Of a stretch of DNA of 64,000 nucleotides, positions 25,221-41,020 are shown in pieces. The stretch is from Sphingopyxis panaciterrae (GTDB lineage Bacteria > Pseudomonadota > Alphaproteobacteria > Sphingomonadales > Sphingomonadaceae): positions 496,001 through 560,000 of the forward strand of contig NZ_JAASQN010000001.1 of assembly GCF_011762125.1 (NCBI RefSeq), given 5' to 3'. The translations under genes and the position numbers were made by a program. The notes beneath the pieces are model-generated. The model did not search any database. It saw only the letters and a program-made list of their open reading frames with translations, and was not told where the DNA came from. Positions within the stretch are counted from its first letter, which is position 1. Every line of letters begins with the position of its first letter.

Positions 25221-27122
25221 TCAGCGCGGTGCCAGCAGCCGGTCCAGCCCAGCCTCTTCGGTGCCGGTTTTTTGAAGGCGCGGATAGCGCAGGCCGCCGC
25301 TGTAGTTGATGGCGACATCGCGGTAGCGCGTGCCGCTTTTCACCAGCAGTCTGATCGGCGTATTCGTCCCTTTTGCGCCCTTGATCGCCTCGATCAGCCG
25401 CTCCTCCGAATATTCGCGGCCGGCCACCGCGACCAGGGTGTCGGCGACATCCAGGCCCGCTTCAAACGCCGGCGAATCCCATGTTACCGCGCTGATCGCT
25501 CCCGCTTTTCCCATCACCAGCCCCAGCGAATAGCTGAGGTCGGTTTGACTGCGGCTCTTCTGCAGATTTTTGAACGCCGCGGTCGGCTCGTCGGTATACA
25601 CGAGACGATACCCATTGGTGTCGAAACCCGATAGCGGGGCGCGCGCGTCCAGACCCTCGAGCCGCGCCCTTAGCAGGCTCGCCCAGTCATAGGGGTGAAC
25701 GGCGTTCAGCGTCGCGACCACCTGATCGAAATCATAGGTCAGCACGCCCCAATCCCCGTCGCGCATTCCGAAAAAGGCGTGCGCGAAATCATCGAGCGAT
25801 TTTGTTCCGCCCGACTGTTTGCGCAGGGTCGCATCGACCTCGAGCCACAATAGCAGGCCTTCGTTGTAATAATCCTCCGACCGCTGCCAGCTGACCCAGC
25901 CTTTCGGACGGCGCCGCGCGATGATGGGATCGTTGGTGGTGTCGATCAACGGCCGCCATGTCCGGGCCGGGCGATTGTCGAGGTTGGCGGCGATGTTCGC
26001 CAGCATATCGAGTGTATCCTGTTTCGATACCATCCCCGACCGTGCCTGAAGGACATATCCCCAAAATTGGGTCTGTCCCTCGTAAACCCAGAGCAGGGAA
26101 TCGCGCATCGGCGTCCTGAAATCCGCCGTCCATGCATCGGCGCCGCGGCGAAACTTGCCATTCCAGCTGTGGGTCAGTTCATGCGGCAGCAGATTGCGCG
26201 ATCCCGGTCCGTCTGCCCATTTGGTGAAGTAACCCGGCTTGACCCCGTTTTCGGAACTGCGGTGATGCTCCAGCCCGATTCCGCCCAGCTCGTCGCTGAT
26301 GGCCAGCAGAAACTCATAACGGTCATAATGCTGGGCGCCGAACAGCTTCGCCGACTGTTCCACGAGCTTTCGATGTGCTTCGATCTGCTCGGGTTTCGCT
26401 TCCAGCTCTCCCGGCTCGTCGGCAAAGACATTGAGGTCCACCCGATCGGACAATTTCCATTCGCGATAATATCGGCCCGCAAAGACCGGTGAATCGACGA
26501 GCGTCTCATAGTCCGTCTTTTCATACACATAATCGCGCCCCTGCCGCTTGGCAGGCAGTCCGGCGACCGCGACCCAGCCTTCGGGATAGGTCGCCGTGAC
26601 CTGCACCGGAATGCGGCGGGTAAAATATCCTGCGGGATAGAGGCTGACATGATTCCATTGCAGGTTCAGCATGTTCGGCGCGACCACGATGCGGCCCTGA
26701 TCGGGTTTGGTCGGGGAGGTGAATTGAAACTCGATATCCAATTGGCTCGCGCCTCGCGGCACCTCGATATGGAACGCCCACATGTCCACCGGGTCGCGCG
26801 TCCAGCGGACCGGCTTGCCGCCCGCCCCGATTTTCAACCCGGTCAGCTTCTCAATCTGTCCGGCGGCCGAATGCGCGCCTGGAAGCCATGCCGGCGACAG
26901 CAGCACCATCGGTCCGGCCCTGGTCACCGGAATCGTCTGTTTCACGCGAAAAATCGCCTGCTGCACGTCGGTCGCGTCGACTTTCAGCGTCATCATCCCC
27001 GGGAAATCGACATCGCGCGCAGCGGGTATCCGGTCCTCGATCGGCACCGGCTGCGGCGCGGAATTCCGAGCGGTGGCGGGTGTCGCGAAGAGCAGGGCGG
27101 CAAGAGCAAGCGGGCGAAGCAT
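25221..27122 (-). CDS. M61 family metallopeptidase (glycyl aminopeptidase type), exported
   Basis: 633 residues with a signal peptide (MLRPLALAALLFATPATA). The zinc site is HELTHSWNGKFR, with the downstream glutamate in WVYEGQTQFWGYV. A C-terminal PDZ domain (SYSLGLVMGKAGAISAVTWD, SPAFEAGLDVADTLVAVAGR) completes the M61 layout. It removes N-terminal residues, Gly or Ala preferred, from peptides, in the periplasm or outside. It is the last gene of a TBDR, S9 peptidase, amidase, M61 run on one strand (57 bp after the amidase), pointing to use of imported peptides or conjugates. Confidence 0.9.
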   Translation of the reverse strand: MLRPLALAALLFATPATARNSAPQPVPIEDRIPAARDVDFPGMMTLKVDATDVQQAIFRVKQTIPVTRAGPMVLLSPAWLPGAHSAAGQIEKLTGLKIGAGGKPVRWTRDPVDMWAFHIEVPRGASQLDIEFQFTSPTKPDQGRIVVAPNMLNLQWNHVSLYPAGYFTRRIPVQVTATYPEGWVAVAGLPAKRQGRDYVYEKTDYETLVDSPVFAGRYYREWKLSDRVDLNVFADEPGELEAKPEQIEAHRKLVEQSAKLFGAQHYDRYEFLLAISDELGGIGLEHHRSSENGVKPGYFTKWADGPGSRNLLPHELTHSWNGKFRRGADAWTADFRTPMRDSLLWVYEGQTQFWGYVLQARSGMVSKQDTLDMLANIAANLDNRPARTWRPLIDTTNDPIIARRRPKGWVSWQRSEDYYNEGLLLWLEVDATLRKQSGGTKSLDDFAHAFFGMRDGDWGVLTYDFDQVVATLNAVHPYDWASLLRARLEGLDARAPLSGFDTNGYRLVYTDEPTAAFKNLQKSRSQTDLSYSLGLVMGKAGAISAVTWDSPAFEAGLDVADTLVAVAGREYSEERLIEAIKGAKGTNTPIRLLVKSGTRYRDVAINYSGGLRYPRLQKTGTEEAGLDRLLAPR

Positions 27123-27179
27123 GGAAAGCGTTCCGATCAGGGGTCGATCCGGTGCTACCGCAACCGGGAGGCGGCGACT

Positions 27180-28730
27180 CTAGCGAAGGGCAGGCGGTTT
27201 GGTCCGGGCGATCCACGGCGAGGCTTGCTCATAAGCATGGCCCAGTTGGAGAACCGCGAGGTCGGCATTGCGCGGACCGATCAGCTGGATGCCGATCGGC
27301 AGGCGATGCGCGCCGCCGAAGCCGGCGGGGATTGCCAATACCGGCAATCCGGCCATCGTCGGGGGAAGGGTAACCTCCATCCACCGATGGTATGAGTCCA
27401 TCTTGATCCCCGCAATCTCGCGCGGCCAATGTTGCTCCGCCTCGAAGGGGAAGACTTGCGCCGTCGGCAACGCGAGAAAGTCGAACGTCTCGAATGCTTT
27501 GCGAAATGCCTCGAAAATCCGCGTCCGTCCTTCCGAGGCTTTGGTCAGTTCCGGGGCGGTCAACCGTTTGTAGCCCTCCACCTCCCAGACGGCCTCGGCT
27601 TTCATTTGCCGCTGCTTCTCCGGATCGTCATAATAACCCTCCAGATCCGCCCCGACCGACCAATGGCGCAGCGTCACGGCAGTGCGCCACATCGCGCCCG
27701 GATCTTCTGCCAATTGCGCTGCGTCGACCCGCATCCCGATGGCGCGAAAGGCAGACAGTGCCTGTTCGCAGGTCTGCATGATACCCGCCTCCATCGGCAG
27801 CGCGCCGCCGAGATCGCCGAGCCAGCCGATACGCTTGCCCTTCCAGTCGCGGTCGAGCGGCTGAGCGAATATCGCCGGATCGTCCTGTTGCGCGAAGGGC
27901 GCGCGCTTGTCCGGCCCCGCCTGCACCGACAGGAGCAGCGCCAGATCGCTTACGCTTCGGGCCATCGGACCCGAGGTCGCAAAATTTTGCCAGAACAGGT
28001 CGCTGTTCGGAATCGACGGCACGCGGCCCCACGACGGGCGGAATCCGAAGATATTGTTCCAGCCGGCGGGATTGCGGAGCGACCCGCCGAAGTCGCTGCC
28101 GTCGGCGAGCGGGACCATTCGCAAGGCGAGCGCAACCGCCCCGCCGCCGGTGCTGCCGCCCGCCGACTTCCGCGGGTCGAAGGCGTTGCCCGTCGTCCCG
28201 AAAACGGGGTTGTACGAATGCGATCCCAGTGCAAACTCGGGGACGTTGGTCTTGCCGACGAAGATCGCCCCGGCATTGCGCATCCGGCCGACAACCAGCG
28301 AGTCCGCCGACGGTACATTGTCCTTCAGGATCGGTGAGCCTTGGGTGAACCGGAGCCCCTTCGCCGCAGCCGTGTCCTTGACCGCGTGCGGAAAGCCGTG
28401 AAGTACGCCCCCGAAGCGGCCCGCCGCCGCTTCCTCGTCCATTGCGGCCGCCTGCTTGAGCGCATCCTCGCGGCCGATGCGCGACACGATCGCATTATAT
28501 TCCGGGTTCAGCGCATCCACCCGGGCGATGTGCGCCGCCATCAGTTCGCGCGCGGACACATCCTTCTTCGCCAGCGCGCGCGCCAGCGCCACCGCGCTCA
28601 TGTCGAGAAGGTCACTCATCTGACCAGCTCCCCTTTCCGCGGCCAGCGCCGGGCCGGCGGCGACGAGCGCAGGCACGGCCGCCAATATCTCGCGGCGGGT
28701 GGGCCCGGCAGGAATATGGGCGCTCTTCAT
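27180..28730 (-). CDS. Amidase signature family hydrolase, exported (Tat-like signal)
   Basis: 516 residues. The catalytic Ser-cisSer-Lys triad is visible: Lys in HAVKDT, cis-Ser in AGGSTGGGAVALAL and the nucleophile Ser in GSDFGGSLRNPAG. The N-terminus GPTRREILAAVPALVAAGPA carries a twin-arginine pattern followed by a hydrophobic stretch, so it is probably exported by Tat. The family hydrolyses amide bonds in small molecules. It starts 15 bp after the S9 peptidase stop, with AGGAGA at proper distance, so the two are cotranscribed. Substrate unknown. Confidence 0.9.
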   Translation of the reverse strand: MKSAHIPAGPTRREILAAVPALVAAGPALAAERGAGQMSDLLDMSAVALARALAKKDVSARELMAAHIARVDALNPEYNAIVSRIGREDALKQAAAMDEEAAAGRFGGVLHGFPHAVKDTAAAKGLRFTQGSPILKDNVPSADSLVVGRMRNAGAIFVGKTNVPEFALGSHSYNPVFGTTGNAFDPRKSAGGSTGGGAVALALRMVPLADGSDFGGSLRNPAGWNNIFGFRPSWGRVPSIPNSDLFWQNFATSGPMARSVSDLALLLSVQAGPDKRAPFAQQDDPAIFAQPLDRDWKGKRIGWLGDLGGALPMEAGIMQTCEQALSAFRAIGMRVDAAQLAEDPGAMWRTAVTLRHWSVGADLEGYYDDPEKQRQMKAEAVWEVEGYKRLTAPELTKASEGRTRIFEAFRKAFETFDFLALPTAQVFPFEAEQHWPREIAGIKMDSYHRWMEVTLPPTMAGLPVLAIPAGFGGAHRLPIGIQLIGPRNADLAVLQLGHAYEQASPWIARTKPPALR

Positions 28731-28745
28731 CCGGTCTATCTCCTG

Positions 28746-30788
28746 TCACAAATGCTCGTCGTACCAGGCAAGCACCCGGCGCTGTATGTCGAGCTGGTGC
28801 TCATATTCGAATATCCTGTGCGGTTCGCGCGGATAGGCGATCATCCGGGCCTCTTTCCCCAGCAGGCGCAAGCCGCGATAAAAGCCCTGGCCTTGCGCAA
28901 GCGGTACACGCCGGTCTTCCTGTCCGTGCAGGACGAGGACCGGCGTGGTCACGCGATCGACCGCCCGCATCGGTGACGATGCGTCCATCTGAGCGATGCC
29001 GGAAGGCGGCATGCCGAAATAGGATGTGATGAAATCGGGCGTATCGGTCGCGAGTGCCGCACTATACTGGTCGGTCAGGGCGGCGCCGACCACCGCCGCC
29101 TTGAACCGCGTGTCGTGCGTCACGGCCCAGGACGTCATGAAACCGCCATAGCTCCAGCCGCCGATTCCCAATCGTGCCGGATCGGCGATCTTGCGTTCGA
29201 CCAGCAAATCGAGGCCGTCGGTAATATCCCGATAGTCGCGGGTGCCCCAACCGCCGACGACGCCGCGCGCAAAGCCGGTTCCCTGGCCGGCAGAACCGCG
29301 CGGGTTGGGAAGCAACACGACATAGCCGTGGCTCGCCAGCACCTGTGCCCAGTCGATCCAGCTTCCCTGCCAGCTTGTTGCCCAGCTGTCGTGCGGCCCG
29401 CCGTGCGCGAGAACAACCGTCTTTGCCGGGGTGCCGGGAACATGGCCAGGCGGCGTGACGAGCACGCCGTAGATCGGCCGGCCATCGAGGCTGCTCTTCC
29501 AGCTGAGCTCCTCGGTCCTGCCGATTTTCCATCGGCGCATCTGGGGATTGATGTCGGATACGAGCCGCAATTTGCCGCTCGCGTAAACCCAGATATCGGC
29601 GGCGCGATCGGGCTGGCTGCCGGCAAGCGCGATACTGCCGTCATCGGCAACGGAAAAATCTCCGATCCGTCCGTCAAAGGCAATCAGCGGGCTGAAACGG
29701 CCGGTCGCAACATCGACGCGAAACAGCGTGTCGCGCGTATGGACGACCGTTCGGGCGAGCAGCGTGCGATTGTCGGTGGACCATTGTACCTCGCGGATCG
29801 TTCCGTCGATGGTCGCGCCAAGCTGCTTGACGGCCCCGGTGTCGATATCGGCGACGAAGGCACGGATCCCGATCAGCCCCTCTTCGGGGGCGGTGAAAGC
29901 GAGGCGTTTTCCGTCGGGGGACCAGCTTCCGGTGCTGAAAACATTGTCGAACAGCTTTTTCTGAACCTGGCCCGTGGCGGCATCCAGCACCAGCAGTTCG
30001 GAATGATAGAAGAGATCGTTAAGACCCGATGTGGCGGCGGCCCGAACCGCCAGGCGCTTGCCATCGGGGGCCCAGCTCACCTCCGAGATATTGCGCTGTG
30101 CCACGGCGACCTGCCGCAGGCTGCGCGAAGCCAGGTCGAGAATCCACAGTTGCGCAAGGTCCTGTGGCGCATCGATCTCGACCCAATCGCGCTTCGCCGC
30201 CCGTTCGGCTTTTGCCTGAGCGGAAAGCGGAGGCGGCGCAAGGAATGCAATGCTGCGTCCGTCGGGAGACCAGCGAAAACCGGCAATGTCGCGCCCGATT
30301 GCCGTCAAGGACTGCGCCTCGCCGCCGCCCTTGGCAGGGACCAGCCACAGCTGCCGGGACGGTTCGACAGCCGGGGGCGCGCCGCTGTCGAACCGGTTCG
30401 AGAGGAAGGCGATGCTGCTGCCATCGGGTGACCATTGCGGACTGCGTTCCAGCACCGCATCGCCGCCCGTCAAACGGCGGGCGGGCGTGCTCCTGTCTGC
30501 CGGCGCGACCCATATCTCGGACCGGGAAGGGCGCGAGTTGGCGATTGTCGGCTGGGTGACATAAAGGATCTGCCGGCCATCGGGTGATATCTCCAGATCG
30601 CCGACATCGGTGAGACCCATGATGTCATCGGGAACGATCGGCTGCGACCGGACGGCCCGGTCCGGATTCTCGGCGCGGGCGGGTTCGGATAGGGCGGGGC
30701 CGAGAGACGCGGCGACGACCATCAGGCACCCGGCAAGCATATTTGTCCGCAACGGCCCCGATCGACGCAGCGTGCCGCCATGGGTCAT
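28746..30788 (-). CDS. S9 family prolyl oligopeptidase-like peptidase, exported
   Basis: About 680 residues. A signal peptide (LAGCLMVVAASLGPALS) is followed by a beta-propeller built from WD40-like repeats (LEISPDGRQILYV, PQWSPDGSSIAFLSN, FRWSPDGRSIAFL, VSWAPDGKRLAV) and a C-terminal alpha/beta hydrolase with HGGPHDSW, nucleophile GIGGWSYGGFMTSW and His in YPREPHRIFEYEH. It cleaves short peptides, often after Pro or Ala. I start at ATG 30788, with GGAG 9 nt upstream. It lies 135 bp downstream of a TonB-dependent receptor on the same strand. Confidence 0.9.
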   Translation of the reverse strand: MTHGGTLRRSGPLRTNMLAGCLMVVAASLGPALSEPARAENPDRAVRSQPIVPDDIMGLTDVGDLEISPDGRQILYVTQPTIANSRPSRSEIWVAPADRSTPARRLTGGDAVLERSPQWSPDGSSIAFLSNRFDSGAPPAVEPSRQLWLVPAKGGGEAQSLTAIGRDIAGFRWSPDGRSIAFLAPPPLSAQAKAERAAKRDWVEIDAPQDLAQLWILDLASRSLRQVAVAQRNISEVSWAPDGKRLAVRAAATSGLNDLFYHSELLVLDAATGQVQKKLFDNVFSTGSWSPDGKRLAFTAPEEGLIGIRAFVADIDTGAVKQLGATIDGTIREVQWSTDNRTLLARTVVHTRDTLFRVDVATGRFSPLIAFDGRIGDFSVADDGSIALAGSQPDRAADIWVYASGKLRLVSDINPQMRRWKIGRTEELSWKSSLDGRPIYGVLVTPPGHVPGTPAKTVVLAHGGPHDSWATSWQGSWIDWAQVLASHGYVVLLPNPRGSAGQGTGFARGVVGGWGTRDYRDITDGLDLLVERKIADPARLGIGGWSYGGFMTSWAVTHDTRFKAAVVGAALTDQYSAALATDTPDFITSYFGMPPSGIAQMDASSPMRAVDRVTTPVLVLHGQEDRRVPLAQGQGFYRGLRLLGKEARMIAYPREPHRIFEYEHQLDIQRRVLAWYDEHL

Positions 30789-30923
30789 ATCATCAAACTC
30801 CAAATCAACATGATATCCGGACCATTTGCCGGGGGAATTCCGCGGCGGAGGTGGTCTCCGTCCGCGGAAGCCCGTATCTGTCCGGCGTTCACCTGCGGCG
30901 AGCCGATACCGGTCCCCTCAAGG

Positions 30924-33641
30924 TCAGAACTCCAGCCGCGCGCCGACCGACATATAACGCCCGACCACGTCATAATAGGGCGAGAAACCCGAACTGAGCG
31001 GCGGGGCCTTGTCGAACAGATTGGAGATGCTTCCGTAGAGTTCGAAATCCTTGCCTTCGCTGACGGGGATCTTCTGGCTCAGTTGCAGGTCGACATAAGT
31101 ATAGGCCGGGATGCGGTTGTTCGTCAGCGCGGGAAGCGTGCTGTTCCAGAATCCGGAGGAAATATAGCGGGCCCGCACCGTGCCGCTGAAGCCATCGCTC
31201 GCATAGCTTATCGAGGCATTCGCCCTGATCCGGGGGACGCCGTTGACGAAGGCGGTTCCTTGCGTCTTCACATAGTCGATCTTCGTGACGCCATCGTCGG
31301 TGCTGAAATTATTCACCCACGTTCCGATCAGGCGAAAGATGACCCGCCCGTTGGCCGCGTTGTTGACCGGCATGGAATAGGCCACCTCTGCATCGACACC
31401 ATCGGTCTTGAACTCCGAGAGATTAACCTGCGAGGATGAAATGCTGTCGATCAGACCGTCGCTGCCGCGGGTGATGTAGCGGCAAAGGCTCGTGTTGCCG
31501 GCGAAGCAGCGATCGACGATGGCCTGTCCCCCGATCGAGGTAATGACATCCTTGATCGAAATGTTGAAATAGTCGATCGAAGCCGTCAATCCCCGCATCG
31601 GCGCGGTCGTAAAACCGGCGGTCCAGGTATCCGCACGCTCGGGTTCGAGCGTCGCGTTGCCGCCGCCGTAGACGAGCGTGCTGTTGCTGCCGTTGCCCGG
31701 ATTCTGCGGATCGATAATGCCGATGTAGCCAACGGTCGGTGTCGAATAAAGCTCGGTCAGGTTGGGGGCGCGAATGTCGCGCGAGCGGGTGACGCGCCCG
31801 ATCACGCCCGGCACGAACTCGTTGGTCAGGCCGACTTTCCACGACCAGATCGTGCCGCTGGTATTGTAATCGGACGCCCGTACCGCGCCGTTCAGTTCCA
31901 GCTTGCGGAGCAGCGGCACGTCCTTGACGACCGGGACGACGATTTCGCCGAATGCCTCCTTGATATTATATTTGCCGCTGAAGCCGCTGAAAAAGAAGGT
32001 GCTGAAGGCTTGAGCGGCGTCGAGTTCGCCGACTTTGGCGGCCGTCGAGAGATTGCGGCCCTCTGCACCGATCGCGATCGACACGGGGCCGGCGGGAAGC
32101 TCGAAAGGCTCGCCGCGCAAGGACACGCCATAGGTATCGAGCTTGTCGAGGACGTCCGACCTCGGCGTCCCTGTCACATAATCGATCGCAGCCTGCGAGG
32201 GGGCGCCCACGCCGAACAGGTTGATCGGTACGCAGCCGCTATTCGGATTGGTAAGCGTGATGCGGCAGATCGGGTCGTCGGTGGCCGGGTCGATCACCGA
32301 GTCGACGGCTCTCGCAAAATTCTGGGTGATCAGGAAGCCGGGGGTACGCAGCTTGTTGCGATATTCGCCGTGGCTGTAATAGGCGCTATACCGCCAACGT
32401 CCGTCGCCGAAGCTGCCGTCGAGTGCGATCGAGCCCTGGATGTTACGCCGGTCGACATCGACATCGGCGAACGAAAGATCGTCGTTGAAGCGGGAAAGCG
32501 TGAAGCTTGTCTGTCCCGCGTTCGCCATCGCCAGCCGCGCGGCGTCGTTCAGATATGCGTTGTCGGAGTTGATGGTAATATTGTCGCTATGGCTGCCGAA
32601 CCAGACATAGTGGTTATAATAGCGCGAGTAGCGCATATCGACACTGAGCTTGAGCGTATCAGTCAGTTCGTACGACGCCTTGGCCATCACCGCATAGCGC
32701 CGTTGCGGGGTGATCAAGACGCTTATGTCATCGTTGGAAGCGCCTTCGCCGCCGATCATGTTGGAGCCGACGATGGTTCCGAGGTTGGGCGTGCGCAGGC
32801 TTCCGTCGGGGTTGAAGCCAAATCCCTTGAGCACGCCCGACGTGATGAAACCGCCCCTCAAACGGGTCGCATGGCCGACGTCGGGCGTAAGTGTATTGTT
32901 GACGTTGGCAAAGCGCGCCGTATTTTTGCGGGCGGTTTTGGGAACGATGCCGTCATTGTCGACATATTCCGCGCCGATCACGAAGTGCCCGCGCCCGTCG
33001 GCGAAGGAGGTGCCGAACTTGCCCTCGAACCGGATCTGCCGCGCATCACCGCGTGACGATATTCCGGCCTCCGCGCCCAACCGAATGCCTTCATAACCGC
33101 CATCGGTAATCATGTTGACCACCCCGGCAACGGCATCGGAACCCCAGGCCGCGGAAGCGCCGCCGGTTACGATATCGACGTTTTCGATCATGATCGAGGG
33201 CACGGTGTTCAGATCGTCGCTGACCAGGCGTCGGCCGTCGAGCAGGATGAGCGAACGCCTGTCACCAAGGCCGCGGATGTTGATCGGAAAGCGGCCGGCA
33301 TCTGTATTCGTGCTCGACGTTTGCGGCGACGCTGCCGCCTTGAATTGCGGCAGGTCGGCGAGCGCCGCGCCGATGTTGGTCCGGCTCACGATCTGCAGAT
33401 CTTCCTGCGTCAGGCGTAGCAGCGGGGTAGGGGATTCAAAGCCCGGGCGATCGATGCGGGTGCCGGTAACGACGATGTCGCCGCCGCTCTCCTGACCCTG
33501 GGCCTGAGCGGCTTCATCGGCGTTCGCGTCGGGGGCGGATTGCGCTGCTGCGAACCCCGGAGTCCCGGTGGCGAAAAGAGCGGCCGAACAACCGGCGAAC
33601 CAGATCGCCTTGCGTCCCGCACGAGACTTCCTCTGCAACAT
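30924..33641 (-). CDS. TonB-dependent receptor (putative substrate importer of the mat region)
   Basis: 905 residues of an outer-membrane 22-strand barrel with plug. The signal peptide (IWFAGCSAALFATGTPGFAA) is followed by GDIVVTGTRIDRPGFESPTP, plug motifs INIRGLGDRRSLILLDGRR and VDIVTGGASAAWGSDAVAGVVN, and it ends in VGARLEF with the terminal aromatic Phe. Its long, Asp-Asn-rich barrel is the type found with peptide or carbohydrate uptake. I start at ATG 33641 preceded by AAGGGGAT. It heads a run of three exported hydrolases and diverges from matR, sharing an intergenic region with a paired GTATAC site. Confidence 0.92.
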   Translation of the reverse strand: MLQRKSRAGRKAIWFAGCSAALFATGTPGFAAAQSAPDANADEAAQAQGQESGGDIVVTGTRIDRPGFESPTPLLRLTQEDLQIVSRTNIGAALADLPQFKAAASPQTSSTNTDAGRFPINIRGLGDRRSLILLDGRRLVSDDLNTVPSIMIENVDIVTGGASAAWGSDAVAGVVNMITDGGYEGIRLGAEAGISSRGDARQIRFEGKFGTSFADGRGHFVIGAEYVDNDGIVPKTARKNTARFANVNNTLTPDVGHATRLRGGFITSGVLKGFGFNPDGSLRTPNLGTIVGSNMIGGEGASNDDISVLITPQRRYAVMAKASYELTDTLKLSVDMRYSRYYNHYVWFGSHSDNITINSDNAYLNDAARLAMANAGQTSFTLSRFNDDLSFADVDVDRRNIQGSIALDGSFGDGRWRYSAYYSHGEYRNKLRTPGFLITQNFARAVDSVIDPATDDPICRITLTNPNSGCVPINLFGVGAPSQAAIDYVTGTPRSDVLDKLDTYGVSLRGEPFELPAGPVSIAIGAEGRNLSTAAKVGELDAAQAFSTFFFSGFSGKYNIKEAFGEIVVPVVKDVPLLRKLELNGAVRASDYNTSGTIWSWKVGLTNEFVPGVIGRVTRSRDIRAPNLTELYSTPTVGYIGIIDPQNPGNGSNSTLVYGGGNATLEPERADTWTAGFTTAPMRGLTASIDYFNISIKDVITSIGGQAIVDRCFAGNTSLCRYITRGSDGLIDSISSSQVNLSEFKTDGVDAEVAYSMPVNNAANGRVIFRLIGTWVNNFSTDDGVTKIDYVKTQGTAFVNGVPRIRANASISYASDGFSGTVRARYISSGFWNSTLPALTNNRIPAYTYVDLQLSQKIPVSEGKDFELYGSISNLFDKAPPLSSGFSPYYDVVGRYMSVGARLEF

Positions 33642-33719
33642 ATGATCCCCTTCCCAAAGTCTGTTTTCCCGGCGCTCTGCGGCGCAAGGCGGAGTGCGTC
33701 TTCGCGACTCCGGCGCTGC

Positions 33720-33747
33720 AATATACAAAAATTACCGCCAATGGCAA
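33720..33747 (-). promoter_or_regulatory. Putative promoter of the TonB-dependent receptor operon
   Basis: On the minus strand, TTGCCA (complement of 33742-33747), 16 bp spacer, TATATT (complement of 33720-33725). Transcription would start near 33712, leaving a leader of about 70 nt. The paired GTATAC site begins 6 bp upstream of the -35. Confidence 0.5.
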
Positions 33748-33752
33748 TCATG

Positions 33753-33789
33753 GTATACGCATATTTCAAATTACCTATATCAAGTATAC
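33753..33789. promoter_or_regulatory. Paired GTATAC operator between TBDR and matR
   Basis: GTATAC at 33753-33758 and 33784-33789, centre to centre 31 bp (three helical turns). The first is followed by G-CATATTTC. The same arrangement recurs at 37106-37142. GTATAC-centred palindromes are the kind of site bound by FCD-type GntR regulators; Rhizobium MatR is reported, as I recall, to bind a TTGTATACA-like site. Confidence 0.7.
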
Positions 33790-33890
33790 CAAATTGTGCA
33801 ATTTATGCGACCATGTAGACGCTTCGGGCGAAGCCAAAATGTCATGGCGCATACACGATCCGCCATTATGCGCTGCACGAGAACACAAGA

Positions 33891-33918
33891 TTGCCGAGGG
33901 CCAAAAAGATTGTACAAT
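33891..33918 (+). promoter_or_regulatory. Putative matR promoter
   Basis: TTGCCG (33891-33896), 16 bp, TACAAT (33913-33918), about 26 nt before the matR ATG. The -10 lies in the palindrome ATTGTACAAT, which resembles a GntR half-site arrangement and could allow autoregulation. The intergenic region 33642-33944 is otherwise A+T-rich without genes. Confidence 0.5.
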
Positions 33919-33944
33919 TATGGGCGCCTGTCAGGGGAGATCGG

Positions 33945-34631
33945 ATGACCAACACGCATGCAAACGAACCGTTGCTTTCCGAGCGTATACGCCGATCGCT
34001 GGCGGACGAGATCGCGACGGGCGCACTGCGTCCCGGGACGCAGCTCGACGAGCAACAGGTCGCCCAGCGTTTTGGAACGTCCCGGACGCCGGCTCGCGAG
34101 GCGCTGCGTCAACTGGCGATGGATGAACTGGTAGAGGTCCGTCCGCGGCGCGGCGCCGTCGTAGCCGAATTATCGGTCGAGCGATTGATCGACATGTTCG
34201 AAATGTCCGCCGAAATGGAGGCGCTCTGCGTCCGGCTGGCGAGCAATCGCATGCATCCGCTCGAACGGGTCCGTCTTGCCCGCCTGCACGAAAGTTCGGC
34301 CGCCCTGATTGAGGCGGGGGATGTCGAGGCTTATGCGGCGTTCAATCTCGCCTTTCACGAAGCAATCTACAGCGCAACGCACAACAGCTACATCGCGGAG
34401 CAGGCGCTGGCTTTGCGCAACCGCATGGCGGGCTTCCGCCGTGCCCAGATGTTCGAACCCCAACGTTTCCGCCGTTCGTTTGAGGAGCATCGCGATATTC
34501 TCGACGCCGTCATGCGCGGCGATGGCGAAGAGGCGGCGCGGCGTATGCGCGCGCATCTGATGAATGCCGCCGGTGCGCTCGAACGCCATGCGGCCACGCT
34601 GAGCGCGAGCGGCGAGGATGTCGAAGCCTAG
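33945..34631 (+). CDS. matR: GntR/FCD transcriptional regulator, probable malonate regulator MatR
   Basis: 228 residues. The N-terminal winged helix (LSERIRRSLADEIATGALRP, QVAQRFGTSRTPAREALRQL, VEVRPRRGAVVAEL) is followed by an all-helical FCD ligand-binding domain with the metal-binding pattern Asp/His (FNLAFHEAIYSATHN, FEEHRDILDAVMRGD). Start ATG 33945 after GGGGAG. Its position among malonate genes and the GTATAC sites support MatR, a malonate-responsive repressor in rhizobia; the ligand is inferred from context only. A GCGTATACGC palindrome lies inside the coding region (33983-33992). Confidence 0.8.
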   Translation: MTNTHANEPLLSERIRRSLADEIATGALRPGTQLDEQQVAQRFGTSRTPAREALRQLAMDELVEVRPRRGAVVAELSVERLIDMFEMSAEMEALCVRLASNRMHPLERVRLARLHESSAALIEAGDVEAYAAFNLAFHEAIYSATHNSYIAEQALALRNRMAGFRRAQMFEPQRFRRSFEEHRDILDAVMRGDGEEAARRMRAHLMNAAGALERHAATLSASGEDVEA

Positions 34632-34726
34632 CGGCCGAGCGGGACAATCCGGGACCGGCGGATATTGGCGGGGCGCTGCGCCGAGGAACCAGTCTATTGA
34701 CCGCCGGCGCCAGTCGATAACGCGCC

Positions 34727-34996
34727 CTAGGGTCAGGACCCATTAATTCCGCATTCGAGGCGTCGAAATGGCGAAGATATCGGGCCTGGGCGGGTGCAGC
34801 GGGTAGCATCGCTACCCGCAAGGCCGCCCAGGCCTGAGATCGAAGCCATTTCGGCGTCGCTTCGCGATTTGACCGATTTTGCCCAGAGCAGCGTCGAAAA
34901 GCCTTGAAATATTGACATATTCCTTCGCCTTTTCTCCTCGCTCTGAGCAAAATCGCTTCAAACCTCGAACGCGGAATTAATGGGTCCTGACCCTAG
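34727..34996. mobile_element. MITE-like element with 34-bp terminal inverted repeats
   Basis: 270 bp without a gene. The termini 34727-34760 and 34963-34996 are inverted repeats with a single mismatch in 34 bp, reading inward CTAGGGTCAGGACCCATTAA. The CTAG at each outer end could be the target duplication. The interior is a nested hairpin: GGCCTGGGCGG (34783-34793) with CCGCCCAGGCC (34824-34834), and GCGGGTAGC (34799-34807) with GCTACCCGC (34811-34819). No transposase is encoded, so it would depend on one elsewhere. It sits 3 bp after the stop of the neighbouring PaiB-like gene. Confidence 0.8.
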
Positions 34997-34999
34997 CCA

Positions 35000-35599
35000 T
35001 CACAATCTTTCGGTGTTGAATCGCGTCATCCAGGCGGCCGTTGCGGTGTCGGGCAGGCGCGCCAGTATATTTTTCAGCACATCGGGTTTTTCATCCTGCC
35101 CCAGTTTGAATTTGCCTGACCGGCTGACCACGCGGGCCCGGAACCCCACGATCTTCTTCATCATCGTCTGATAGCGTGGGCCGAGTTCGCCGGCATGCCA
35201 AGGCTCGTGGCGCCCTCGCTCCATCTCGTCGATCAGCATCGTCAGAGCCGATCCGGTGAAAGCATCGTCGAACATGATTTCCGCTTCGATGCGCAACTGC
35301 GCGTAATTCCATGTCGGGGCCCAATCGCGCAGGCGAGCGTGTTCAGGGCTGATATAGGCATCGGGTCCCTTGAAAAGGATGGATGCGCGAGGTCGCCGTT
35401 CCAGCGCGGAATGAAGCGGATTCAATCGCATGAGATGCCCGATCAGTTCGACAAGCTTTCCCTGTTCGTCATAGCGCCCGACGAGCGGAAGGAGGCTTGC
35501 CTCCATGCCGTCCGCGCCATCGGCGCAAACCCACGCCAGCGGATAGGCGTCGAGCAACGCGCGTATATCGGCGTCATCGAACCGCTCGAATATCGACAT
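35000..35599 (-). CDS. FMN-binding PaiB-like protein (putative negative regulator)
   Basis: 199 residues of the PaiB family: SIFERFDDADIRALLDAYPL, LPLVGRYDEQGKLVELIGHL, NPLHSALERRPRASILFKGP, DAYISPEH-ARL, VPTWNYA-type sequence (here APTWNYAQL) and a C-terminal GFRARVVSRSGKFKLGQ. The fold is a split-barrel flavin-binding domain. Family members are annotated as FMN-binding negative transcriptional regulators, but an enzymatic role is equally possible. It is 22 bp after matC with AAAGGAG upstream, so it is part of the matC transcript. Confidence 0.88.
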   Translation of the reverse strand: MSIFERFDDADIRALLDAYPLAWVCADGADGMEASLLPLVGRYDEQGKLVELIGHLMRLNPLHSALERRPRASILFKGPDAYISPEHARLRDWAPTWNYAQLRIEAEIMFDDAFTGSALTMLIDEMERGRHEPWHAGELGPRYQTMMKKIVGFRARVVSRSGKFKLGQDEKPDVLKNILARLPDTATAAWMTRFNTERL

Positions 35600-35621
35600 C
35601 CGGTTTCTCCTTTAACGGGGC

Positions 35622-36860
35622 TCACGCCAGAAATACAAAGATGAACCAGGCTACCAGCGGTCCAAGCAGAGCGACGATTGCGCTGTAGCCGAGCAACTGG
35701 CGGACCAATCGTTCGCGGATCGGTTCGGCGGCATTGGCCACGACAAGCGCACCATTGGTGGAAAAGGGGGACGTATCGACGATTGTGGTCGCGATTGCGA
35801 TCGCCGCCACCGTACCGATGGCGCTGACCTCTCCATGGTCGAAGAAAGGTATTGCGAGCGGTACGACGATGCCCAGCAAGGCGGTTGACGAAGCGAAGGC
35901 CGAGACGATGCCGCCGAGATAACAGAGCAGCAAAACGGCAAGCAGCGGCGACCCGATGCCGGCGATGAGTTCGCCCGCCGCACTGACGGTCCCCACCCGC
36001 TGGAGAAGCGCGACATAGGTCACGACGCCCGCGATCAGGAGCACCGTCGACCAGGCGACGCGATCGACAGCGCCTTTTTGCGAGCGCGGTGCCACGATAG
36101 CGAGAAATGCGGCCGCGACCATGCTCGCCACACCGATGTCGATGCCGAATGCGATGGTTGCGATCGCCATCGCTCCCAGTGTCAGCAGGGTCAGCGACCG
36201 TTCGCGTTCGATTTCCGGCGGCGGCGCTTCCGGCACCTGGGCCTTGTCAGGCGCTTCGCGAAGCAGGCGCAGGCCGCCCAGGAACAGGAAGATCAGAATG
36301 GCCACAGCGAGATTGAAAAACAGGCTGGCGAAAAACAGCATGAGCGGTTCGGGAGCCACCCCGTTCATTTCGATCACGCCATTGGTGATTCCGCCATAAA
36401 CGGACGTCGGCGAGAAGGCGCCGGCCTGGGCCCCGTGAATCGTCATCAGCCCCATCATCAAGGGGCTGATTTTATGTTGGGCGGCGAAACGCAGCGCGAC
36501 CGGCGCCACGATCGCAACGGCCGCCGGACCGAGCGCGCCGAACGAGGTGAGAAGCGCCGCGGCAATGAAGACGACCCAAGGCATCGCAACCGCGCGATGG
36601 CCGAACATGCGTGTGAGGCCGTGCACGACCCATTCGATTGCGCCGTTGCGTTCGGCAATGGCGAACAGGAATGTCACACCGACCAATATGACGACCAGAT
36701 CGCCCGGAAAACCGGCCAGCACCTCCTTGGCGGGAATGTCGATAAGCGTCGCACTGACCAGAAATGCTGCCGCCAAGGCCAGCAATCCCATATTGATCGG
36801 CCGTAACGTCGCAATCAGGAACACAAGGGCGAGCGTTCCGACCAGGATGAGGTGGGTCAA
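35622..36860 (-). CDS. matC: SLC13/MatC-type carrier, probable malonate transporter
   Basis: 412 residues with about 11 hydrophobic helices. The N-terminus LALVFLIATLRPINMGLLAL and the GAQAGAFSPTSVYGGITNGV and VDTSPFSTNGALVVANA re-entrant motifs are characteristic of the MatC branch of the ion transporter superfamily, which takes up malonate and other dicarboxylates. The start is TTG (complement of 36858-36860) after GGAGGATAAT. It diverges from matA across 316 bp that contain the paired GTATAC operator, and carries the PaiB-like gene behind it. Confidence 0.85.
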   Translation of the reverse strand: MTHLILVGTLALVFLIATLRPINMGLLALAAAFLVSATLIDIPAKEVLAGFPGDLVVILVGVTFLFAIAERNGAIEWVVHGLTRMFGHRAVAMPWVVFIAAALLTSFGALGPAAVAIVAPVALRFAAQHKISPLMMGLMTIHGAQAGAFSPTSVYGGITNGVIEMNGVAPEPLMLFFASLFFNLAVAILIFLFLGGLRLLREAPDKAQVPEAPPPEIERERSLTLLTLGAMAIATIAFGIDIGVASMVAAAFLAIVAPRSQKGAVDRVAWSTVLLIAGVVTYVALLQRVGTVSAAGELIAGIGSPLLAVLLLCYLGGIVSAFASSTALLGIVVPLAIPFFDHGEVSAIGTVAAIAIATTIVDTSPFSTNGALVVANAAEPIRERLVRQLLGYSAIVALLGPLVAWFIFVFLA

Positions 36861-37078
36861 ATTATCCTCCCGTCGGCCGCATTTCGCGGCGCAATCATTT
36901 CTGCAGTGGGTGCGGTGTCGAGCGCGGTTGGCGCGGTCAGCTCATATATCGCTCAGAACGTCACGGGAACATCTCTCATCCCGATTGCGCTGGCAGCCGC
37001 CGATGCGATCCGCGCGCAGGGGATATTCGTGTCGTTATGCCGCCGTGGCAGCCAAAACATGTTGTCATGATCCTCTCC

Positions 37079-37104
37079 GGGCAACTTCGTGTTGCCTTTT
37101 ATTT
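37079..37104 (+). terminator. Small terminator-like hairpin upstream of matA
   Basis: GGCAAC-TTCGT-GTTGCC (37080-37096) is followed by TTTTATTT. Read on the plus strand it looks like a short intrinsic terminator, yet no convincing gene precedes it. The rest of 36861-37176 holds the operator pair and no recognisable gene. It might terminate a small antisense or leader RNA. Confidence 0.4.
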
Positions 37105-37105
37105 C

Positions 37106-37142
37106 GTATACACATATTTCCATATGCCGCTATACCGTATAC
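37106..37142. promoter_or_regulatory. Paired GTATAC operator between matC and matA
   Basis: GTATAC at 37106-37111 and 37137-37142, centre to centre 31 bp, with CATATTTC after the first, as at 33753. About 27 of 38 positions agree between the two copies. The second half-site is embedded in a TATACA -10-like element. It should control matA-matB and perhaps matC. Confidence 0.7.
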
Positions 37143-37176
37143 ATAACGCGACGATATTTTGTCTTTGGTATCACGA

Positions 37177-38514
37177 ATGAGAGAGTGGATGGACCGTTCC
37201 TCGCTGACCGACCTTCTGCAGAAATTCTCGCTTCAGGGGCGGGACTTGCTGCGCAGGCACGTGCCGTTCATCGCTGCCGGCGCAGCCGGCCCGGCGCGCT
37301 CGCGGGTCGAGACGCTGTGCGATATGGCCCGCGACCTCATATCGAATCGGGGCGAGGCATCGGGGGTCGCGATCGCCTCGGACCTGCTGCGCCTGTACGA
37401 AGCAGCGAGCGAAGCCGATCGCGCCGGCTTTTTCGCGGTTCTTGCACAAGGCTTCAATCCCGACCGGCCGGCGCTTTTGTCGGCTTGGGCGAAATTTCAG
37501 GCACAGGGCTGGAGCGCCTACCCCGATCTCGCGAGCGCGATAGAGGCGCCGCGGCAGGAACTTTTTAGGCGTCTGAACCTCGCGCCGGGAGGCACCGCCG
37601 CCCTGGTGCGCATGCGCGCCGATTTGCTCGCCATGAGAGACCTGCCCGGCGCGGCGCTGGTGGAAGCGGATCTCGCCCACCTGCTACAGTCATGGTTCAA
37701 CCGCGGATTTCTGACGATGCGAGTGATCAACTGGTCGTCGCCGGCCAGCCTGCTCGAGCGCGTAATCCGTTACGAAGCCGTGCACGATATCCGCGACTGG
37801 AACGATCTGCGCAGCCGGCTCGACCCGTCCGATCGACGCTGTTACGCCTTTTTCCATCCTGCGATTCCTGATGATCCGCTGATTTTTGTCGAAGTCGCTC
37901 TCACAAACGGCGTTCCGGACAGCATCCAGAATTTGCTCGCGGCGGATCGGGTGCCATCGCAGGGTGCGGATGCCACGACGGCCGTCTTCTATTCCATCAG
38001 CAACTGCCAGCCGGGTCTGCGGGGCATTTCGTTCGGCCATTTCCTGATCAAGCAGGTTGCCACCGATTTGAAGCGGGAGATTCCTGGCCTGGAGCGTTTC
38101 GTCACGCTTTCCCCTATTCCCGGCTTCATGAAATGGCTGCGCGCCCATGATCGCGCATTGGCCGGGGAGGAGAGCGATCATATCGAAGCCTGTCGCGACC
38201 AGCTGATCGCATGTGCTCTTCGGTATTTTCTCGAGAGCAAGGATGAGGAGGGGCGCCCCATCGATCCGGTCGCCCGTTTCCATCTCGGCAACGGGGCGCG
38301 GCTGGAACAACTGAACTGGATGGCCGACAGCTCCGAAAAAGGATTGCGGCAGAGCGCGGGCATGATGGTCAACTATCTGTACGATCTTCCCGCGATCGAG
38401 GAACTGCACGAACGATTTGCCAATCGTGGCTCGATCGCCATCGGCAGGCCTTTTCGGCAGCTGATTTCAAAACTCGAACCCGATTATGGGAAGATGATGG
38501 AACGACAGGAATGA
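37177..38514 (+). CDS. matA: Malonyl-CoA decarboxylase
   Basis: About 445 residues of the MLYCD/MatA family, converting malonyl-CoA to acetyl-CoA and CO2. The N-terminal helical domain is followed by the GNAT-like catalytic part: FLTMRVINWSSPASLLERVI, YEAVHDIRDWNDLRSRLDPS, CYAFFHPAIPDDPLIFVEVAL, YSISNCQPGLRGISFGHFLI, TLSPIPGFMKWL and FHLGNGARLEQLNWMAD. Catalytic Ser and His of this family fall in the SISNCQ-to-SPIPGF region. ATG 37177 is the best start; TTG 37159 is weak. It overlaps matB by 4 nt. Confidence 0.93.
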   Translation: MREWMDRSSLTDLLQKFSLQGRDLLRRHVPFIAAGAAGPARSRVETLCDMARDLISNRGEASGVAIASDLLRLYEAASEADRAGFFAVLAQGFNPDRPALLSAWAKFQAQGWSAYPDLASAIEAPRQELFRRLNLAPGGTAALVRMRADLLAMRDLPGAALVEADLAHLLQSWFNRGFLTMRVINWSSPASLLERVIRYEAVHDIRDWNDLRSRLDPSDRRCYAFFHPAIPDDPLIFVEVALTNGVPDSIQNLLAADRVPSQGADATTAVFYSISNCQPGLRGISFGHFLIKQVATDLKREIPGLERFVTLSPIPGFMKWLRAHDRALAGEESDHIEACRDQLIACALRYFLESKDEEGRPIDPVARFHLGNGARLEQLNWMADSSEKGLRQSAGMMVNYLYDLPAIEELHERFANRGSIAIGRPFRQLISKLEPDYGKMMERQE

Positions 38515-40028
38515 GCAACCTCTACAGCCGCCTCGCGGCGGAATTTCCGGCGAATCGTGGCCGTGTCTTCGCCTGGCTCGCCGACAGTCGCTCGCTGAGC
38601 TATGGCGGCGTCGAGGCGGAATCGGCGCGCTACGCCAACGCGCTCCGCGAACTGGGGGTCGGTATCGGGGATCGCGTCGCGGTACAGGTCGAAAAGAGCG
38701 CCGAAATGTTGCTGCTGTATCTCGGCTGTTTGCGGCTGGGGGCCGTCTTCCTGCCGCTCAATACCGCATATACTGCGGGTGAACTCGAATATTTCGTCGG
38801 CGATGCCGAGCCGGCGCTTCTCGTCTGCGACCCGGCGGCGGCCAGCGTGATCAGCGCGCTGCCGGCCGCTGGGAGCATGAAGGTGGAGACGCTCGATGCG
38901 GCAGGCGACGGCACGCTTGCCGAACTGGCACGAAGGGCTTCACCCGTCTTCGCGACCGTGGCGAGAGATGACAATGATCTCGCCGCGATTCTCTACACAT
39001 CGGGCACGACGGGGCGGTCGAAGGGCGCGATGCTGAGCCACGGCAACCTTGCATCGAACGCCTTTGCGCTGCGGGACATCTGGCGCTTTGCCGCGGACGA
39101 TGTGCTATTGCACGCGCTGCCGATTTTCCACACCCATGGGCTGTTCGTGGCAACGAACGTCATGCTGGCGTGCGGCGGATCGATGATCCTTCTTCCGCGA
39201 TTCGAGGTCGGCGAGGTCATGGCAACGCTCCCGCGCGCCACCGTCATGATGGGCGTTCCTACCTTCTATATCCGCCTGCTCGGCGAGGCGGGGTTCGGTC
39301 GCGAACTGGTTTCCCACATGCGGCTGTTCATATCGGGGTCCGCTCCCCTGGCGCCCGATGTCCATCGTGAGTTCGAGGCGCGGACCGGTCATGCCATCCT
39401 CGAGCGCTACGGCATGACCGAAACGAATATGAATATATCCAACCCCTACGACGGCGAACGGATTCCGGGGACCGTAGGGCTGCCGCTGCCGGGGGTCGAA
39501 ATCCGTATTGCGGACTCCGCGACGGGCCGCGTTCTGCCGCAGGGGGAGGTCGGAGTCATCGAGATTCGCGGGCCCAATGTGTTCAAGGGCTATTGGCGTC
39601 TTCCCGAGAAGACCGCGGCCGAGTTTCGCGACGGGTTTTTCATATCCGGCGATATGGGGCGCATCGATCAAAACGGATATATTTCCATCGTCGGACGCGA
39701 AAAGGATCTCATTATTGCGGGTGGACTCAACATTTACCCTGCGGAGGTCGAGGATGTGATCGGAGCACTGCCAGCCGTACGAGAGGTGGCGGTGATCGGC
39801 CTTCCGCATCCTGATCTGGGGGAGGCGGTCGTGGCGGTGATCGTCCCGCGCGACGCCGCATTTGCCGATGCCGCGGCGATTTCCGATGCGCTGCGCGACA
39901 AGCTTGCCCGGTTCAAGCAGCCCCGGATGGTCCTGTTCACCGATGAGCTCCCGAAGAATACGATGGGGAAAGTCCAGAAGGCCGAGCTGCGCAAGCACCA
40001 TGCCTGCCTGTTCGCATCGCGCGGTTGA
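38511..40028 (+). CDS. matB: Malonyl-CoA synthetase (acyl-CoA ligase)
   Basis: 505 residues of the ANL superfamily, activating malonate with ATP and CoA. The P-loop is LYTSGTTGRSKGAMLSH, the A5 motif ERYGMTETNMNISNPYDGER and the A8-A10 segments DGFFISGDMGRIDQNGYISI, GREKDLIIAGGLNIYPAEVE and the acetylatable Lys in NTMGKVQKAEL. The TETNMN-NPYDGER stretch is typical of MatB and separates it from acetyl-CoA synthetases. ATGA overlap with matA implies coupled translation. With matA it turns malonate into acetyl-CoA. Confidence 0.93.
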   Translation: MSNLYSRLAAEFPANRGRVFAWLADSRSLSYGGVEAESARYANALRELGVGIGDRVAVQVEKSAEMLLLYLGCLRLGAVFLPLNTAYTAGELEYFVGDAEPALLVCDPAAASVISALPAAGSMKVETLDAAGDGTLAELARRASPVFATVARDDNDLAAILYTSGTTGRSKGAMLSHGNLASNAFALRDIWRFAADDVLLHALPIFHTHGLFVATNVMLACGGSMILLPRFEVGEVMATLPRATVMMGVPTFYIRLLGEAGFGRELVSHMRLFISGSAPLAPDVHREFEARTGHAILERYGMTETNMNISNPYDGERIPGTVGLPLPGVEIRIADSATGRVLPQGEVGVIEIRGPNVFKGYWRLPEKTAAEFRDGFFISGDMGRIDQNGYISIVGREKDLIIAGGLNIYPAEVEDVIGALPAVREVAVIGLPHPDLGEAVVAVIVPRDAAFADAAAISDALRDKLARFKQPRMVLFTDELPKNTMGKVQKAELRKHHACLFASRG

Positions 40029-40111: not shown

Positions 40112-41020
40112 TCAATCGTTCGAGCAGGGTTGGGCTCCACGCATTTCCCGCAGGATCCATGTCCGGAAAAGCTCCAGCGGCGGGTGATCATCATGGGTGT
40201 CGGGCCACGCGAGATAATAGGCTTCCGGGCTTTCGTAGCGACGATCGACGGGCATGACGAGTTCGCCGCGGTCCAGCTCGCGCCCGATCAGGCTTTCGGG
40301 GAGGAGCGCAATGCCGAGGCCTGCGCGTGCGGCCTCGACGAGGAGAAGGAACTGGTCGAAGAGCATGCCATGCACTTCGCCCGGATCGACTCCCATCGCG
40401 GCAAACCAGCGCTCCCATGCGTCGGGACGCGAGACGAGATGGAGAAGGGGGGCGGCCACGAGGTCGGCCGGCCCCTCGCACGCCAATTCATCCCTCAATT
40501 GGCGGCTGCAAAGCGGCACGAGCTGCTCGTTCATCAGGAAATCCAGCCTGGCGCCCGGCCATTCGGGCGGGCCGAAATGGATCGCCGCATCGACGGTGTC
40601 GAAACGGAAGTCGAAGGGGGCTGCTCGCGTCGTCAAATTGATGCGGATCTCGGGCTGCCCCGACAGAAACCGGGGCAGGCGCGGCGTGAGCCAGCGTGCG
40701 CCGAACAGCGGCAGCACCGCGATATGCAGCGAACCGCCATCGGGATTGGCCCTGAAGCCTAGTGTCGCATTCGAAATCCGGTTCAACGCATCGCGGATTT
40801 CGCGCGCATAGGCCTTGCCGGAAAGCGTGAGATAGACCTTCTGCTTCTCGCGCTGGAAAAGCGGCGCCCCCAACATCTCCTCCAATGCCCGGATCTGCCG
40901 GCTGACGGCACTTTGGGTGAGCGAGAGCTCGCGCGCCGCGAGGGTGAAGCTCTGCGTCCGGGCTGCCGCCTCGAACGCATAAAGGAGGGCGGTCGGTGGC
41001 AGGAAACGCCGGGGGATCAT
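40112..41020 (-). CDS. LysR family regulator (GcvA-like)
   Basis: About 302 residues. The N-terminal helix-turn-helix (ALLYAFEAAARTQSFTLAAR, LSLTQSAVSRQIRALEEMLG, PLFQREKQKVYLTLSGKAY) is of the GcvA branch, followed by a periplasmic-binding-like effector domain. It is divergent from the FAD oxidoreductase gene (124 bp between) and most likely controls the pipecolate/lysine genes. I prefer the second ATG (complement of 41018-41020) because of GGA spacing; the first is two codons earlier. Confidence 0.88.
   Translation of the reverse strand: MIPRRFLPPTALLYAFEAAARTQSFTLAARELSLTQSAVSRQIRALEEMLGAPLFQREKQKVYLTLSGKAYAREIRDALNRISNATLGFRANPDGGSLHIAVLPLFGARWLTPRLPRFLSGQPEIRINLTTRAAPFDFRFDTVDAAIHFGPPEWPGARLDFLMNEQLVPLCSRQLRDELACEGPADLVAAPLLHLVSRPDAWERWFAAMGVDPGEVHGMLFDQFLLLVEAARAGLGIALLPESLIGRELDRGELVMPVDRRYESPEAYYLAWPDTHDDHPPLELFRTWILREMRGAQPCSND

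Follow-up and report, generated by a model that had tools for sequence, protein, structure and literature searches.

Malonate serves plants and fungi as a tag for amino acids, hormone precursors, flavonoid glucosides and siderophores, and little could be found in the literature on how bacteria recover it. This question is raised by a stretch of 64,000 nucleotides from Sphingopyxis panaciterrae (Alphaproteobacteria, Sphingomonadaceae; contig NZ_JAASQN010000001.1, positions 496,001 to 560,000; hereafter the window), in which genes for malonate uptake and conversion (matC, matB and matA) and a gntR-type regulatory gene adjoin those of a TonB-dependent receptor (TBDR), an S9 peptidase, an amidase-signature hydrolase (hereafter the amidase) and an M61 peptidase. 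Why should a receptor and three hydrolases stand beside a malonate pathway? The initial annotation of the window proposed that they import and cleave malonyl conjugates and thereby supply the pathway. On the basis of the analysis presented here, this interpretation as a whole is partly supported, and a regulon for scavenging malonate conjugates is the best reading of the locus, one that we place slightly on the probable side.

Shared operators and the malonate regulator

GTATAC half-sites are paired at 31 bp at two divergent promoters, TBDR/gntR (33753/33784) and matC/matA (37106/37137). In the whole 4.84-Mb genome the pattern GTATAC-N25-GTATAC occurs only there, and the reversed control pattern was found at zero places genome-wide. 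The sequence GTATACNCATATTT is also exact at only these two promoters, with one further place in the genome at one mismatch, and at the TBDR/gntR promoter one-mismatch half-sites prolong the phase at 33721 (32 bp) and 33815 (31 bp). The sister Sphingopyxis genome (G039) has exactly two GTATAC-N25-GTATAC places as well, in the equivalent regions and with the same 31-bp spacing; the letters between the half-sites vary and the spacing is constant. Thus, the earlier claim that both gene groups share the same operators is borne out. One-mismatch pairs were also observed in G427 (30 bp spacing, between gntR and matA) and in Novosphingobium subterraneum (L050; 31 bp, ~120 bp upstream of a TBDR adjoining gntR). 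MdcY sites are described as GT and AC boxes separated by a 2-nt gap (PMC4494728), a rule that the predicted sites (GT-AT-AC) fit.

Judged from its homologues, the predicted GntR protein is a malonate regulator of the MatR/MdcY type, which agrees with its earlier annotation as matR. Matches to it were found at 20 loci in the contigs: all 16 with at least 56% identity lie near MatB, MatC, MadM or malonate decarboxylase alpha, and at the other four (30% identity or less) no panel gene could be observed at E up to 1e-15. GntR homologues of 35-44% identity in four genomes (G101, G090, G133 and G097) were without a close malonate gene. We infer the binding of the GntR protein at the paired GTATAC sites, as well as its inducer.

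Linkage of the amidase family to malonate genes

Relatives of the amidase were collected from an order sample of 396 genomes (E up to 1e-120) and a class sample of 327 genomes (E up to 1e-110). Amidase genes were found in 23 genomes of the order sample and MadM, over its cut-off, in 15, the malonyl-CoA decarboxylase (MCD) family being present in 21 of the 396; MatA was matched in 6 of 148 relatives. Seven genomes contain both the amidase and MadM, compared with 0.87 expected (hypergeometric 4e-6, 396 genomes), and in all seven the amidase gene adjoins those of MadL and MadM, which make up a malonate symporter. Ten of the 23 amidase-bearing order genomes carry the amidase and malonate transport/activation genes in one fetched stretch (the window genome, G427, G133, G137, G141, G122, G318, G202, G214 and G320; the G141 contig ends near the amidase and was counted as positive), and G039, outside the sample of 396, is the eleventh. 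The gene order is TBDR-MatA-MatB / AraC-amidase-MadL-MadM in G133 and TBDR-amidohydrolase-CehA/McbA-like hydrolase-amidase-MadL-MadM-MatB in G137. At the class level, 15 further amidase genomes were identified, two of which (G655 and G747) have a MatB gene that overlaps the amidase by 4 bp; the class amidase N-termini, as called, show no export signal. A putative twin-arginine motif could be recognized by eye in 22 of 23 order amidase N-termini (14 as called, 8 after upstream extension), a set that includes G039, excludes G189 and contains nine read with upstream extension; the exception is the amidase of L126.

When mapped on a tree of 39 amidase rows, the malonate label takes seven changes, six of them forced by well-supported branches, and label shuffles were as low in 0/500 for the malonate rows and 5/500 for the rest (G189, with a contig of 3,443 bases, was scored 'none' in this test). 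The linkage between amidase and malonate genes is clustered, yet these changes indicate that it has been gained or lost repeatedly.

Several other arrangements were seen around members of this family and around MCD genes. Plasmid pMaD2 of Marinovum algicola (L215 3064-10404) carries malonyl-CoA decarboxylase, acyl-CoA synthetase, amidase, fatty-acid transporter and a second (window-type) amidase in one apparent operon. In G122 (L030 9914-10210), all that is left of MatA is a C-terminal piece of ~98 codons, next to the amidase and a MatB that looks intact. In another amidase subclade (L124, L126 and L129) the neighbours are a protein of 1075-1097 aa, of DUF3857/transglutaminase/TPR composition in the single example scanned, and a gene of the acyl-CoA dehydrogenase type. 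L026 (G091, 2-17098) groups a related amidase (51%) with a TBDR, two DUF885 proteins, an M14 peptidase, a POT transporter and enzymes of the DAO and DHDPS families, a cluster that presumably resembles those for the use of hydroxyproline peptides. With respect to MCD, a role in malonate catabolism was rejected for G400 (C12), G369, G227, G265 and G443, where the gene has another conserved neighbourhood and no MatB; fragmentary matches occur in G204 and G406, whose loci lie outside the fetched set.

TonB-dependent receptors and ester-type loci

In 14 of 28 loci, a TBDR lies no more than 3 kb from the malonate core, compared with 8 to 14% expected from the TBDR densities of three genomes. At the density of the window genome (121 Plug matches in 4.84 Mb) a single case of adjacency has little weight, yet chance was rejected as the explanation for such a fraction. 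All 28 loci are of the Sphingomonadales type and contain Mat or Mad genes; they include the window and near relatives and are not all independent. Mdc-only loci (L027, L041, L042, L044-L049 and L053), MCD loci without MatB (L028, L131, L134, L136-L142 and L144), L037 (the same as L143) and the later-found loci L192, L196 and L215-L217 were excluded; G421 (MatA and carboxylesterase only) was retained. It should be noted that the profile used for TBDRs drew on six proteins and failed to detect two L163 TBDRs found by Pfam, which were added by hand; TBDR absences are therefore to be read as giving lower bounds.

Carboxylesterase genes stand beside MatB or MatA in the malonate loci of N. rosa (L037), REEB22, G421 and G382, and all four products appear by eye to have RR-type N-termini. 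Because related malonate loci carry such exported-looking carboxylesterases, they suggest parallel amide and ester versions of the system. A plasmid of Novosphingobium capsulatum HAMBI_0103 (L216 2123-19341) is annotated with a GH1 beta-glucosidase, a carboxylesterase that likewise stands beside MatB or MatA (malonyl-CoA synthase and decarboxylase), MadLM and two TBDRs, a gene set that would suit malonylated glucosides and makes malonyl-glucoside utilization possible there.

Proposed mechanism and alternative explanations

In the favoured reading, a MatR/MdcY-type GntR protein would bind the paired GTATAC sites at the two divergent promoters and would couple the TBDR-S9-amidase-M61 operon to matC-paiB and matA-matB. 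The TBDR would carry a malonyl-bearing compound, too large or too scarce for porins, across the outer membrane; exported peptidases would trim the conjugate, and an amidase exported by the twin-arginine (TAT) route would cleave its malonyl-amide bond in the periplasm. The freed malonate would enter via MatC (or MadLM in other loci), MatB would form malonyl-CoA and MatA would decarboxylate it to acetyl-CoA. An exported hydrolase adjoining an inner-membrane malonate carrier is the arrangement required for malonate release outside the cytoplasm. What was observed comprises the genes present, the paired operators, the repeated linkage and the export-like N-termini. Malonate would be the product of the amidase, and documented compounds that are candidates for its substrate are N-malonyl amino acids (PMC8762209), malonyl-ACC (PMC4227472), aryl malonamic acids from Fusarium (PMC4726666) and malonichrome (PMC4290682).

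The malonate core (matABC/matR) is in itself ordinary. No description of a TBDR, amidase or esterase joined to malonate use was found in the open-access literature, and we found none there of a malonate core combined with a TBDR and exported hydrolases under paired operators and recurring in two chemical versions. If correct, this reading would point to enzymes that may act on malonyl-ACC, N-malonyl-tryptophan, aryl malonamic acids or malonichrome, and would account for the frequent TBDRs beside sphingomonad malonate loci; the substrate question could be tested with two or three purified enzymes.

A number of observations weigh against this reading. First, the operator does not generalize: no operator pair lies upstream of the TBDR-amidase genes in G427, and none was found in the Novosphingobium loci L037-L040 and L043 or in most other loci tested. 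Second, malonate genes are absent from 13 of the 15 further class amidase loci and from the fetched regions of six (G344, G401, G443, G449, G434 and G225) of the eight members (68-100% identity) of the close amidase clade in the order sample. A Novosphingobium RL4 plasmid has TBDR, PaiB, ornithine cyclodeaminase (OCD) and amidase genes and zero malonate genes across 27 kb. Amidase genes occur in 41 plasmid records, and five of the six examined are without malonate genes, absences that are weak because the gene table for plasmids is incomplete. Third, 13 of the 28 malonate loci have neither amidase nor carboxylesterase. Finally, S9 was found in three of the close amidase loci (two with mat genes and one without) and M61 only in the two sisters, cases that are too few to assign these peptidases to a malonate function.

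The initial annotation had named rarity of the two gene groups side by side in relatives as refuting its proposal, and for the whole block this is what was found: among the fetched loci, the complete TBDR-S9-amidase-M61 and mat block is present only in the window genome and G039, with a reduced form (TBDR-amidase and GntR-MatC-MatA-MatB) in G427. The amidase-malonate and TBDR-malonate pairs, in contrast, do recur in relatives. Gene neighbourhoods mark TBDR, amidase and PaiB as an independent module, which in Sphingopyxis has become linked to malonate genes; in G427 the linkage involves the module without PaiB. The TBDR-amidase module can exist without nearby malonate genes, since six of the eight close orthologue loci and RL4 show none. 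These malonate-free close loci instead show combinations of TBDR, PaiB, OCD, Lrp/AsnC regulator, MocR-type regulator and TolB-amidohydrolase. G344, G401, G434 and G225 were among neither the MCD nor the MadM matches of the order-wide search (MatB and MatC were not searched genome-wide); G437, G443 and G449 carry MCD at another genomic site. PaiB accompanies the TBDR-amidase module in other genomes and in the window sits directly behind matC; the two units are therefore interleaved, beyond being mere neighbours.

Such modules speak for a possible but less probable explanation, in which two adjacent modules share one regulator: malonate catabolism, and a general scavenging of peptides and amino-acid derivatives by TBDR, S9, amidase, M61 and PaiB (with OCD, Lrp and MocR in relatives), malonate being a signal of a plant-rich habitat and not the amidase product. 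Close modules in G344, G401, G443, G449, G434 and plasmid RL4 that combine TBDR, PaiB, OCD or Lrp without nearby malonate genes would be expected under this explanation, S9 and M61 are peptide enzymes, and TBDRs are dense in this genome. However, distant relatives of the amidase lie, in several lineages, with MadLM, MatB or MatA in what look like operons that contain neither S9 nor M61, and the operators link the TBDR-amidase module to the mat genes, both of which speak against this explanation.

An unlikely explanation, under which the locus would encode a nearly complete route, is the catabolism of the Fusarium siderophore malonichrome or a similar hydroxamate siderophore. Malonichrome is described as a cyclic peptide with six residues, namely one Ala, two Gly and three N5-hydroxyornithines that each bear a malonic acid acyl group (PMC4290682). 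The TBDR would take it up, S9 and M61 would dismantle the Gly/Ala peptide, the amidase would strip malonyl groups from N5-hydroxyornithine, the PaiB-like heme-type protein would deal with hydroxylamine, MatCBA would use the malonate and OCD (in relatives) would convert ornithine to proline. The predicted functions of the M61 glycyl aminopeptidase, the PaiB-like protein and the sister-locus OCD (matching ornithine cyclodeaminase 1u7h at E 2.6e-117) fit the parts of malonichrome unusually well. The PaiB-like protein is nearer to piperazate synthases, which use N5-hydroxyornithine, and to NohD than to PaiB: its matches in the Protein Data Bank (PDB) include 9jn4 (E 2e-14), NohD 9or1 (E 1.7e-12), 9kea (E 3e-12) and piperazate synthase 9ebk (E 7.7e-11), and PaiB itself (9vyc/2ol5) is weaker, at E 3.6e-7, than the piperazate synthases and NohD (E 2e-14 to 1.5e-10). 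The entry 9jn5, listed alongside 9jn4, is KtzT and 9kea is LnzB, according to PMC13274692.

On a hand mapping to the 9qlk alignment, with 9qlk taken as the SbPZS of the piperazate synthase (PZS) paper and numbering shifted by 2, the PaiB-like protein retains His-61, Asn-66, Thr-102, Lys-173 and Asp-177; according to that paper, PaiB retains four of these residues without N-N activity. Against siderophore catabolism, Lys-178 is replaced by Glu and Tyr-150 by Arg (a Tyr follows), and Tyr-94 is not retained. OCD is absent from the window locus (the locus only, as no genome-wide OCD search was made), and an inverted-repeat element stands in its place. This element of ~270 bp (34727-34998), with inverted ends GGGTCAGGACCCATTAATTCCGC and eight further whole or partial copies (73-87%) elsewhere in the genome, occupies the spot where G039 has OCD and an Lrp-type regulator (L036 10828-12467). 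The best-scoring stretches of the TBDR against the PDB lie at residues 52-196, that is, the plug (best E 2.1e-10, colicin I receptor), and no siderophore-specific feature was seen among its Pfam and PDB matches. The regulator is of a malonate type and not an iron type, nothing pointing to iron control was seen at the window locus, and the amidase-MadLM loci are without extras of the PaiB/OCD type. If malonichrome were the substrate, the malonate-free modules would handle non-malonyl ferrichromes, and the wider set of loci would amount to a general way of scavenging malonyl conjugates, in which the amide and ester arms are separate.

Salvage of malonamate or malonamide, as proposed for the Bradyrhizobium malonamidase E2, in which the amidase would merely deamidate malonamate, is very improbable: an amidase-signature enzyme is indeed linked to malonate genes here, and malonamidase E2 converts malonamate to malonate and ammonia (PMC8393822), but so small a substrate needs no TBDR, two peptidases or TAT-type export, and zero malonamidase-named chains are among 39 PDB sequences at E up to 1e-20.

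Features of the locus and neighbouring genes

Domain calls were made on the window proteins with Pfam and NCBIfam profiles against curated cut-offs, with further comparison against PDB sequences (Table 1). The calls confirm the gene list of the initial annotation (TBDR-S9-amidase-M61, matR, matC-PaiB-like and matA-matB). On the minus strand, transcription runs from the TBDR through the S9 peptidase and the amidase to the M61 peptidase, and the matA and matB reading frames overlap. Malonyl-CoA decarboxylase, malonyl-CoA synthase and MatC occur together, all over curated cut-offs, and the M61 peptidase combines PF05299 with an HEXXH motif (HELTH, by eye). The motifs GWSYGG (S9), HELTH (M61) and YTSGTTG (MatB) were likewise found by eye, and we take them to be catalytic. 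Lys118, Ser193 and Ser217 of the amidase are invariant across 13 aligned family members and presumably form the Ser-cisSer-Lys triad of the amidase signature family. The N-termini of TBDR, S9, amidase and M61 look signal-peptide-like by eye, that of the amidase being twin-arginine-like.

Table 1 Features of the malonate locus in the window
Feature	Position	Strand	Basis
M61 (glycyl aminopeptidase-type) peptidase, signal-like N-terminus	25221..27122	-	PF05299/PF17899 over cut-off; PDB 8j9c E 1e-203
Amidase-signature hydrolase, twin-arginine-like signal	27180..28730	-	PF01425; NF005686 over cut-off
S9 (prolyl-oligopeptidase / acyl-peptidase-like) peptidase, probably exported	28746..30803	-	PF00326 + PD40; PDB 8wt1 E 1.9e-57
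TBDR, likely start 33641	30924..33728	-	PF00593, PF07715
Operator pair GTATAC-N25-GTATAC, between TBDR and gntR	33753..33789	.	motif search
GntR/FCD malonate regulator (MatR/MdcY-like), likely start 33945	33891..34631	+	PF00392, PF07729
PaiB-like FMN_bind_2 protein, directly downstream of matC	35000..35599	-	PF04299
MatC malonate carrier	35622..36860	-	PF07158, PF03600
Operator pair GTATAC-N25-GTATAC, between matC and matA	37106..37142	.	motif search
MatA malonyl-CoA decarboxylase	37159..38514	+	PF05292, PF17408
MatB malonyl-CoA synthase	38511..40028	+	NF005702, 790.9 bits vs cut-off 558

The S9 peptidase could not be assigned as dipeptidyl-peptidase Dpp5 (NF053518, 216.6 bits, under the cut-off of 900). 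A role of the locus in lasso-peptide clearance was rejected because the S9 peptidase, at 204.2 bits, falls far under the cut-off of 400 for the isopeptidase NF033523 (AtxE2 type); lasso precursor genes were not sought. Beside matB, positions 40112-44001 carry a GcvA-like LysR regulator, an L-pipecolate-oxidase-like FAD enzyme (below cut-off) and an L-piperidine-6-carboxylate dehydrogenase (over cut-off), which together make a lysine/pipecolate catabolic unit.

Comparison with known systems

The closest parallel to the malonate core is the matABC/matR operon of Rhizobium and relatives. The Microvirga ossetica plasmid locus L217 shares with the window a GntR regulator, an SLC13/MatC-type carrier, malonyl-CoA decarboxylase and malonyl-CoA synthase; its stretch has no annotated TBDR, amidase or peptidase, whereas in the window a second operator pair puts such genes under the same control. 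Malonamidase E2 of Bradyrhizobium japonicum resembles the window amidase in its amidase-signature fold and triad and in its malonate product, which would be shared by the window enzyme. It is not among the PDB matches of the window amidase at E up to 1e-20, and the window enzyme differs from it in having an export-like signal and in standing behind a TBDR.

Sphingomonad clusters of TBDR and peptidase genes, including those of lasso-peptide isopeptidases, presumably show the same order of TBDR then S9 beside a GntR-type regulator. The window differs from the lasso isopeptidase clusters in the low score of its S9 peptidase given above and in its coupling to malonate catabolism. The Novosphingobium capsulatum plasmid locus (L216) is similar to the window in that GntR, malonyl-CoA synthase, malonyl-CoA decarboxylase, TBDRs and a hydrolase occur in one stretch. 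It has a carboxylesterase instead of the amidase, MadLM instead of MatC and a GH1 beta-glucosidase nearby, which suggests malonyl esters or glucosides as its substrates.

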